Shown here: piece after piece, positions 4,586-34,746 of the stretch | Position numbering within the stretch: the stretch's first letter is position 1 | How the letters are laid out: each line of letters opens with the position of its first letter | NCBI GenBank assembly: GCA_016186915.1 | Contig: JACPKU010000006.1 | Coordinates: 313,619 to 350,085 of the forward strand | Source: Candidatus Doudnabacteria bacterium | Lineage (GTDB): Bacteria > Patescibacteriota > Doudnabacteria > UBA920 > O2-02-FULL-48-8 | Length of the DNA stretch: 36,467 nucleotides | Direction of reading: 5' to 3' | Position numbers and translations under genes: made by a program | Notes under the pieces: model-generated | What the model was told of the DNA's origin: nothing | The model's database searches: none | What the model saw: only the letters and a program-made list of their open reading frames with translations

Positions 4586-4682
4586 CCCGTTTAGAAATTT
4601 AATTGCTAAGCTTGCTGTTAATTTGATATTTCCCGTTAGCCGGCGATTATTTAAAAAGCATCGTGGAAATTTCTAACGGGAT
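4585..4682. repeat. MITE-like element with CCCGTTAGAAAT / ATTTCTAACGGG terminal inverted repeats (copy 1)
   Basis: cccgtttagaaattt...aaatttctaacggg; related copies at 16814 and 34681. Confidence 0.65.
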
Positions 4683-12024: not shown

Positions 12025-12040
12025 AAAAAATACACCTTCT

Positions 12041-12207
12041 TTCATCCCGACTATACGGTCGGCCCTGGAATTACACCAGATCATGCCACTGACTAGGTGG
12101 CTCGTGGGCTAAACCCTCTCTCGGCCTTCGGCCACTCTCTCCCAAGGAGAGAGAGATAAAAAGAAAGGGTCATTACCACCGATTGCCGAATCACACGGCA
12201 CCCTGAA
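12041..12207 (-). ncRNA. FMN riboswitch (RFN element)
   Basis: Minus strand: TCAGGGTGCCGTGTGATTCGGCAATCGGTGGTAATGACCC...TTTAGCCCACGAGCCACCTAGTCAGTGGCATGATCTGGTGTAATTCCAGGGCCGACCGTATAGTCGGGATGAAAG; matches RFN conserved blocks, including the diagnostic 3' half. Confidence 0.88.
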
Positions 12208-12212
12208 AATGT

Positions 12213-12653
12213 TTAATTACTTGGATTATAACTGGAGAAAAACTGTCTGGCAAACAGCTCATCCTGTTTCATCTGCTCGATCAATTCGTCCGCAGAATCA
12301 AATTTTTCGTTCTCTCGAATCTTTTTGATGAGTTCCACCCCTAACTCTTTCCCGTAAATGTCATATGTAAAATCCAGGATATACACTTCTACTTTTCTCT
12401 CCTGCTCATCAAAAGTCTTCGCGCTACCGATAAAGATTAAGGCAGGCAAATATTTTTGTTCCGGCATGATCGCTTTCCTCGGCCACAACTTGCGGACAAA
12501 CAATGGCGGCAGACCATTTTCTATGTGCGTGACTAAGCCTACATAAACACCTTCTTCGGCGTGGGTTTCCGCATCCAAATTCGCGGTCGGGAATCCTAAC
12601 TGCTTGCCTCGTCCCAAATGTTTTTTCACTTTACCGGAGATTATTGTTGCCAT
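12213..12653 (-). CDS. Riboflavin kinase (stand-alone RFK domain)
   Basis: MATIISGKVKKHLGRGKQLGFPTANLDAETHAEEGVYVG...KVEVYILDFTYDIYGKELGVELIKKIRENEKF. Confidence 0.9.
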   Translation of the reverse strand: MATIISGKVKKHLGRGKQLGFPTANLDAETHAEEGVYVGLVTHIENGLPPLFVRKLWPRKAIMPEQKYLPALIFIGSAKTFDEQERKVEVYILDFTYDIYGKELGVELIKKIRENEKFDSADELIEQMKQDELFARQFFSSYNPSN

Positions 12654-16754: not shown

Positions 16755-16856
16755 TTACCGACCTCTGTATCGGAAAAAATAAAACCAAAACTGATTAGTA
16801 ATAGATGAATTCACCCCGTTAGAAATACTGTAATATGGCAAATTGTTTGCTGTCAT
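16755..16856 (-). CDS. Candidate leader peptide L4 (33 aa, aromatic run)
   Basis: MTANNLPYYSISNGVNSSITNQFWFYFFRYRGR; stop overlaps the anti-terminator strand. Confidence 0.4.
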   Translation of the reverse strand: MTANNLPYYSISNGVNSSITNQFWFYFFRYRGR

Positions 16857-16913
16857 TTAATATAAATTCGTTTAAGAACTCCGTAAAATTTGATTATTAA
16901 TTTCTAACGGGGT
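16814..16913. repeat. MITE-like element with CCCGTTAGAAAT TIRs (copy 2)
   Basis: ccccgttagaaat...atttctaacgggg. Confidence 0.75.
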
Positions 16914-19033: not shown

Positions 19034-19076
19034 GCCGCGGTGGCGCTTGCCTTTCGCCTGGCAGATTTACCCCGCA
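19034..19076 (+). pseudogene. 5' part of outermost interrupted tRNA-Leu (unit A)
   Basis: GCCGCGG TG GCG [cttgcctttcgc] CTGGCAGA TTTACCCCGCA. Confidence 0.7.
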
Positions 19077-19084
19077 TAGTTGGT

Positions 19085-19154
19085 GCCGCCGTGGTGGAAC
19101 CCCGCACCAAGGCGAAGCCTGGTACGGGGCAAGTTGGCAGATTTACCCCGCACC
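19085..19154 (+). tRNA. 5' part of middle interrupted tRNA-Leu (unit B) with a 34-nt D-loop hairpin insertion
   Basis: GCCGCCG TG GTG GAA [CCCCGCACCAAGGCGAAGCCTGGTACGGGGCAAG] TTGGCAGA then IVS arm TTTACCCCGCACC. Confidence 0.6.
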
Positions 19155-19181
19155 GTAACGTACTCTTTGTTTTCATATGGT

Positions 19182-19268
19182 GCCGCGGTGGCGGAACTGG
19201 CAGACGCACACGACTCAAAATCGTGCGGGAGCAATCCCATGAGAGTTCGATTCTCTCCCGCGGCACCA
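19182..19268 (+). tRNA. tRNA-Leu(CAA), complete, CCA encoded (unit C)
   Basis: GCCGCGG TG GCG GAACTGGCAGA CGC A CACGA CTCAAAA TCGTG cgggagcaatcccat GAGAG TTCGATT CTCTC CCGCGGC ACCA. Confidence 0.97.
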
Positions 19269-19292
19269 TATGCATGTAAATTGATCGTTACT

Positions 19293-19365
19293 GGTGCGGG
19301 GCACGCACGACTCAAAATCGTGTGGCTTTACAGCCATGTCGGTTCGACTCCGACCGGCGGCACCA
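19293..19365 (+). tRNA. 3' part of middle interrupted tRNA-Leu(CAA) (unit B)
   Basis: IVS arm GGTGCGGGG, then CAC G CACGA CTCAAAA TCGTG TGGCTTTACAGCCAT GTCGG TTCGACT CCGAC CGGCGGC ACCA; pairs with GCCGCCG and GTG of 19085-19096. Confidence 0.7.
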
Positions 19366-19369
19366 CTTG

Positions 19370-19452
19370 TGCGGGGCGCACACGGCTCCCGCCTTCGTCC
19401 TCCGGACTTCGGCGGGCAGGCAAAATCGTACGGGAGCAATCCCATGGCACCA
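19370..19452 (+). pseudogene. 3' part of outermost tRNA-Leu (unit A), anticodon loop split by a palindromic element and T-arm deleted
   Basis: TGCGGGG CGC A CACGG CTC [33-nt element] AAAATCGTACGGGAGCAATCCCATG GCACCA. Confidence 0.7.
19388..19421. repeat. Palindromic mini-element (same family as 13030-13061) in a tRNA anticodon loop
   Basis: CCCGCCTTCGTCCTCCGGACTTCGGCGGGCAGGC. Confidence 0.75.
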
Positions 19453-19476
19453 AAAAAACGACTTAGGTCGTTTTTT
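19452..19476 (+). terminator. Intrinsic terminator after the tRNA-Leu locus
   Basis: AAAAAAACGACTTAGGTCGTTTTTT. Confidence 0.85.
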
Positions 19477-19486
19477 ATTATGCGGC

Positions 19487-19984
19487 TTAAACTGTGAAGT
19501 TTTTTTTGAAAAGGGCTTTCAAGCCCCAAACAACCAAAGCGGCAATCACAACGCTTCCAATAATATCTGAAATATAATGCACCCCCACAAACACCCGTGC
19601 TATCGAGCCAATCGTGGCTAAAACAATCAGTGGCCAAAACCATCTAGTCCTATAAAAAGCCAAGGCAATCGCAAACAAAATCACGGCGTGCCCTGATGGA
19701 AAAGAAAAACCTTGGTCTTTTATAAGCAATTGATTTACATCCATAACTTCAAAAGGCCTGGCCCGTTCTATACCTCTTTTCAACAGCTCCACTATGACCC
19801 GCCCCGCCAAGGCGGAGCCAAGAGCCAACAAAACCTTGGTCCGCAAATTTTTATACAACCACAGAGCCAAGACCAGAGCCAACATCATCCAGACTAGATG
19901 TTCGGCGAAAAAAACTCCCAAGTAGTCTAACACTTGGCTCTGTCCCGCCAAGCTATTTATAAATTTGAATAATACTTGATCCAT
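19487..19984 (-). CDS. PAP2-family phosphatase
   Basis: KRGIERARPFE...FSFPSGHAVILFAIALAF...RVFVGVHYISDIIGS. Confidence 0.9.
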   Translation of the reverse strand: MDQVLFKFINSLAGQSQVLDYLGVFFAEHLVWMMLALVLALWLYKNLRTKVLLALGSALAGRVIVELLKRGIERARPFEVMDVNQLLIKDQGFSFPSGHAVILFAIALAFYRTRWFWPLIVLATIGSIARVFVGVHYISDIIGSVVIAALVVWGLKALFKKNFTV

Positions 19985-34680: not shown

Positions 34681-34746
34681 ATCCCGTTAGAAATCCGAAG
34701 TCACAACTTCGGCGGATGTCCAAGGGCATCCTATTTCTAACGGGAT
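34681..34746. repeat. MITE-like element with CCCGTTAGAAAT TIRs (copy 3)
   Basis: ATCCCGTTAGAAAT...ATTTCTAACGGGAT. Confidence 0.8.

Follow-up and report, generated by a model that had tools for sequence, protein, structure and literature searches.

The tRNA-Leu(CAA) locus examined here, in a 0.73 Mb Candidatus Doudnabacteria genome (G000), consists of three tRNA-Leu genes set one inside another. In the window, by which we mean the whole stretch of 36,467 nucleotides analysed, an intact gene (C) lies in the D-loop of a second (B), and B lies in the D-loop of a third (A), the nest spanning about positions 19034-19460. We consider it likely that the locus records how an essential tRNA gene, present in a single copy, was replaced in successive steps by insertions that complement the loss they cause. 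tRNA genes are usually regarded as stable and vertically inherited. The results below suggest instead that, of the tRNA genes detectable in a genome, at least one in four looks like a replacement housed in the shell of its predecessor. No published description of nested tRNA genes was found in the open-licence literature.

Along the + strand, positions 19034-19476 contain A5', B5', intact C, B3', A3' and a terminator, as determined by reading the sequence and by repeat search; the order claimed in an earlier, sequence-only reading holds, and its coordinates check. A5' (19034-19045, identified by the same two means) comprises the acceptor and 5' D-stem sequences of the outermost, decayed tRNA-Leu. 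Comparison with the intact D-loop of C reveals a short insert in the D-loop of A (CTTGCCTTTCGC, 19046-19057), probably the remnant of a hairpin insert, and beyond it lies a D-loop piece of A, TGGCAGA (19059-19065; direct repeat D6). The left frame of the B cassette (19066-19084; inverted repeat I2) has a TTTA tail, a CCCCGCA arm and a spacer. B5' (19085-19100) provides acceptor GCCGCCG, D-stem GTG and the start of the D-loop of the middle tRNA-Leu(CAA), as defined by spliced alignment and ARAGORN. Two inserts occupy the D-loop of B, one on each side of a second TGGCAGA piece (19135-19141; repeat search and spliced alignment). The first, I1, is a hairpin of 34 nt (CCCGCACC..GGTACGGGG with a CAAG tail; 19101-19134, ambiguous by one base), and the other, of 160 nt (19142-19301), carries C. 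The left frame of the C cassette (19142-19181) consists of a TTTA tail, an CCCCGCACCGTAACG arm, a spacer and CATATGGT; then come C itself (19182-19268) and the right frame (19269-19301), which begins TATG and includes CGTTACTGGTGCGGGG. B3' (19302-19365) supplies the 3' D-stem, the anticodon, variable and T arms, the 3' acceptor strand and CCA of the middle tRNA, and is followed by the right frame of the B cassette, CTTGTGCGGGG (19366-19376; inverted repeat I2). The 3' portion of A opens with the 3' D-stem and 5' anticodon stem (19377-19388). A REP-like hairpin, I3 (CCGCC..GGCGGG with a CAGG tail, about 19389-19420), lies in the anticodon arm directly 5' of CAA, its boundary being ambiguous by 1-2 nt, and the same site is used in G001, G034 and G036. 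The rest of A (19421-19452; repeat D2) retains the CAA anticodon, the variable arm and GCACCA, the T arm having been deleted, and a terminator-like hairpin, AAAAAACGAC/GTCGTTTTTT (19453-19476; inverted repeat I7), closes the locus. All these features are on the + strand. Repeat search, spliced alignment and frame comparison show that the inserts bear terminal inverted repeats. The two inserts of A, in its D-loop and its anticodon arm, are additions to the earlier description.

When the locus is left uncut, ARAGORN and Rfam see C only, the former calling tRNA-Leu(CAA) and the latter scoring 54.5 bits with RF00005; C is also the only intact gene for its anticodon found in G000. B was proposed earlier to be a diverged, covarying tRNA and not a broken copy of C, and excision was suggested as the check. 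Joined across its inserts (19085-19100, 19135-19141 and 19302-19365), B is an 87-nt sequence that ARAGORN calls as a perfect tRNA-Leu(CAA), and G008, G013 and G001 have intact genes of the B type at the syntenic locus, in agreement with the proposal. A, after excision of its inserts, is not called by ARAGORN because its T arm is gone. Depth thus tracks decay in the window, C being intact, B perfect when excised, and A the most decayed, as had been thought. In spliced alignment, C scores 72 against its own flanks, compared to a maximum of 31 against shuffled flanks (n=40, z 9.4), which excludes chance as the source of the match. The B+C transcript of 281 nt is predicted to fold into the inner cloverleaf on an extended stem (-134 kcal/mol), with a z of -7.0, as expected for nested palindromes.

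The locus has been followed in relatives, where it is considered orthologous because it shares a PAP2-like phosphatase and a glyA-like protein as neighbours (names read from translations, not profiles). In G013, an intact B-type tRNA lies inside the D-loop of an otherwise intact C-type tRNA, and G001 and G007 are similar. In G003, G005 and G008 the locus is un-nested. Around C in G000, the frame shares homology with that enclosing the B-type tRNA of G013 (z 7.6) and of G001 (z 8.6). Despite the homologous frames, the outer tRNAs and the cargo are of opposite types in G000 and in these two genomes, indicating that frame and cargo are separable, through recombination or cargo exchange. The tRNA block is also inverted with respect to the PAP2-like neighbour in the window (19034-19984), where the two are on opposite strands; in G003, G005, G001, G007 and G013 both are on one strand.

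A stepwise series is found at the tRNA-Leu(CAG) locus, which adjoins a conserved ORF (alignment to G006 over 447 residues). The gene in G002 is a single, un-nested one of the A type. In G003, A holds an intact B, and the outer A is without an anticodon. In G000 and G006, A holds B and B holds C, with the same TTTACCCCGYACTAAT A/B junction in both genomes. The progression from single A through A>B to A>B>C supports the outside-in order of insertion that was earlier proposed for the window locus. In G000, C of this locus resembles the A type again, so that the types alternate.

Nesting is neither confined to this locus nor to leucine, a breadth that the sequence-only reading did not anticipate: it is genome-wide, involves many isotypes and is spread over Patescibacteria. 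Searching 49 genomes of the order with the TTTACCCCGYAC pattern uncovered Thr, Glu, Pro, Met and Ile tRNAs, each nested in a tRNA of its own kind; copies that carry no tRNA were found between genes. Since non-Leu tRNAs were found nested, every tRNA of four genomes was aligned to its own flanks, allowing long inserts and masking the tRNA and its neighbours (G000, G006, G025 and G005, the last with 35 of its 47 tRNAs covered). A score of at least 50 was taken as nesting; with shuffled flanks, in the first run of the survey, single-locus maxima were at most 41. The nested tRNAs numbered 10/41 in G000, 13/47 in G006 and 9/20 in G025. G005 had 0/35, its top score being 48. At all but two of the loci scoring at least 50, the top-scoring query had the amino acid of the tRNA at that locus, and the two exceptions (Tyr of G000 and initiator Met of G006) adjoin remnants of neighbouring nested tRNAs. 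The initiator Met of G000 was dropped as an artefact of neighbouring tRNAs in clusters once the neighbours were masked. Wherever the outer anticodon is legible, it equals the inner one. The nested isotypes include Leu, Thr, Val, Gly, Arg, Trp, Ile, Pro, Met, Asp, Glu and Ala. Among GTDB contigs, nested tRNA-Leu genes marked by the motif that follows TGGCAGA occur, going by contig titles, in Doudna-, Jorgensen-, Moran- and Kerfeldbacteria, in other Patescibacteria and in BMS3Bbin08, a contig whose phylum is not stated. A motif scan of viral contigs found no nested tRNAs. Phage records match stretches of ordinary tRNA-Leu only, and a phage or viral origin was therefore rejected.

The inserts prefer loops. 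In high-scoring loci, 36 of 49 junctions are at the D, anticodon, T or variable loops or at loop edges, whereas loops make up about 43% of positions. None of the 49 is in the acceptor stem, a zero that is partly a matter of ascertainment because the alignment needs the acceptor ends. The usual element, by a consensus read by eye and carrying no model score, has a C-rich arm, a G-rich arm and a 4-nt tail, and is found in either orientation. The arms are typically CCCCG...CGGGG (CCCCGYAC...GTRCGGGG) or CCGCC..GGCGG, and the tails TTTA, CAAG or CAGG. Thr-GGT and Arg-UCG of G000 are nested, yet little or no inverted arm is visible in them. Within an isotype the insert site is identical across species, the D-loop pair I1+TGGCAGA+I2 co-occurs, and some outer tRNAs look mosaic, such as Ile-GAT of G006, whose 3' half is identical to the inner tRNA. 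Target-site duplications were not seen at the tRNA sites; some intergenic copies are flanked by TTTA or TTCA direct repeats. In the window, hairpins of the CCCCGTTAG..CTAACGGGG type occur away from tRNAs at 16814-16912 (with TTCA on both sides), 34683-34744 and 4632-4680. Three elements of G025, each about 115-120 nt long (L109, L131 and L134), are nearly identical; they have the form TTTAC..arms..TTTAC with a conserved internal sequence, and are possibly the termini of a larger mobile element. Two contigs of G000, C4 and C7, start only a few bases away from the TTTACCCCGCAC motif (L125 and L126), suggesting that the assembly breaks at repeats.

We propose that a short palindromic cassette, with inverted arms and a 4-nt tail, brings a whole tRNA gene with it when it inserts into a loop of a resident gene that has the same anticodon. 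This resident gene would be broken and the cargo would substitute for it, leaving a cell that survives and is now dependent on the cassette. The displaced tRNA would persist as a shell, gathering further hairpins and decaying, and a later cassette entering the new tRNA would produce nesting, with the innermost copy, here C, as the only working one. Hairpin and cargo would arrive in one step, and cassettes would be exchanged between cells. Their movement may be by hairpin (REP-like) transposition, by recombination through homologous tRNA halves, or both. The anticodon match would be expected: where the tRNA gene that is hit is essential and has no second copy, only insertions that supply a tRNA with the same decoding can survive. 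Spread by either route, or by both, would account for this match too, and for the shared precise site and the co-travelling D-loop inserts. Y1 transposase was considered as the mover and rejected: the Y1_Tnp profile (PF01797) has no matches in G000 or G025, both of which are rich in nested tRNAs. Against the proposal stand this absence, the tRNA sites at which no target-site duplication was seen, and the nested cases with little or no visible arm. Further, in the pattern-search loci no tRNA-bearing cassette is seen outside a tRNA gene, although free transposition predicts such cassettes, and several displaced outers have perfect stems, which is unexpected if they are long dead. A bolder version, for which we would claim somewhat short of an even chance, is that hairpin arms and a tRNA gene together form a selfish cassette that invades the matching essential tRNA gene and becomes indispensable, rival cassettes displacing one another, leaving nested fossils and circulating horizontally across Patescibacteria.

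The perfect stems raise the question of whether the outer tRNAs are used. Were the hairpin inserts spliced introns, the outers would mature after removal of hairpins from the D-, anticodon- or T-loop, and the inner tRNA would be an intron-encoded gene. The intact cloverleaf stems and anticodon of B, L006, L035, L049, L115 and of Met, Asp and Thr outers, with inserts in loops only, are what splicing would require, and the nested transcript folds well. However, G006, an essentially complete genome, has an intact gene for every needed anticodon with the sole exception of tRNA-Asn, and no anticodon there relies on a hairpin-interrupted gene. The tRNA-Asn gene (L252, G006:C9) was considered as a spliced sole copy and rejected; what interrupts it is a group I intron, of 580 nt by ARAGORN, with an open frame inside. 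Detection of this intron serves as a positive control for the window, where no Rfam intron family was reported and RF00028, the group I catalytic core, had no match. Moreover, the outers at L069, L057 and L086 are truncated after the D stem or the anticodon, and that of G003 lacks its anticodon, as described above. Wherever tested, hairpin-interrupted tRNAs have thus proved dispensable, and nothing calls for splicing as an explanation. The earlier suggestion that B might be spliced finds no support, we regard splicing of these inserts in general as improbable, and the outers, judged from their sequences, are most likely dead shells. That several retain perfect stems despite two or more inserts most simply means that they were displaced recently, or came together with the inserts. 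In G000, tRNA-Asn was found neither by ARAGORN (tRNA loci) nor by BLAST, reflecting either a gap or another interrupted gene.

Recombination might also suffice without any transposition: an imported interrupted locus would recombine through the tRNA halves and spread like a homing intron, with no transposase. This is a variant of the workings proposed above, and confidence in the two overlaps; as a sufficient account we find it possible but doubtful. The identical sites within isotypes, the co-occurring D-loop pair, the mosaic outers, the frame shared by G000 with G013 and G001 around opposite types, and the want of a Y1 transposase in G000 all suit it. It leaves the origin of the first cassette unexplained, and also the similar hairpins in other loops and in intergenic DNA. 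Tandem duplication of tRNA-Leu, which is common for tRNAs, followed by deletions and chance hairpins, is extremely improbable. Deletion cannot yield the order A5' B5' C B3' A3' with paired arms, and the nested order, which rules out a tandem array, recurs at dozens of loci and in relatives; an array lacking paired arms, which the earlier reading held would tell against nesting, was looked for in relatives and is not what they have. We give equally little credence to an assembly or binning artefact. Palindromes and repeats do break assemblies, and two G000 contigs start beside the motif, but many independent assemblies show the same architecture in the middle of contigs, and G000 has it at many other tRNAs.

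Replacement by self-complementing insertion, the reading we prefer, has partial parallels in known systems. Integrative elements that target tRNA genes encode an integrase, and they reconstitute the resident tRNA by restoring its 3' end. As in those systems, a tRNA gene is the target and the host stays supplied with that tRNA, but here about 110-180 nt bears a complete second tRNA and the resident is left split; the 160 nt of the C-bearing insert leave no room for an integrase gene. Group I and archaeal BHB introns likewise interrupt tRNA genes in loops. Here, in contrast, multiple hairpins interrupt the D, anticodon and T loops, a tRNA is what they carry, and the inserts have no catalytic core. 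REP elements of the REP/RAYT (Y1 transposase) system look similar in being short GC-rich hairpins with a 4-nt foot, in many copies, some of them intergenic, the likeness of the CCCCG..CGGGG and CCGCC..GGCGG arms and CAAG, CAGG and TTTA tails having been read by eye, not by homology. They differ in that the present elements carry a whole tRNA gene and interrupt tRNA genes, in a host without Y1 transposase. The RPE and WPE of Rickettsia and Wolbachia are palindromic elements of 100-150 bp that insert inside genes, RPEs sitting in ORFs without destroying the frame (PMC3767692). In the present case the host tRNA is destroyed and its replacement carried.

Nested tRNAs would thus constitute a readable fossil record of gene displacement, and they suggest mobile DNA that is viable only by carrying the gene it breaks. 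The nested shells are missed by standard tRNA annotation. They may offer a natural system for following the spread of tRNA alleles between species in ultra-small bacteria. Elsewhere in the window, an FMN riboswitch is present on the - strand (12030-12214, 86.3 bits).
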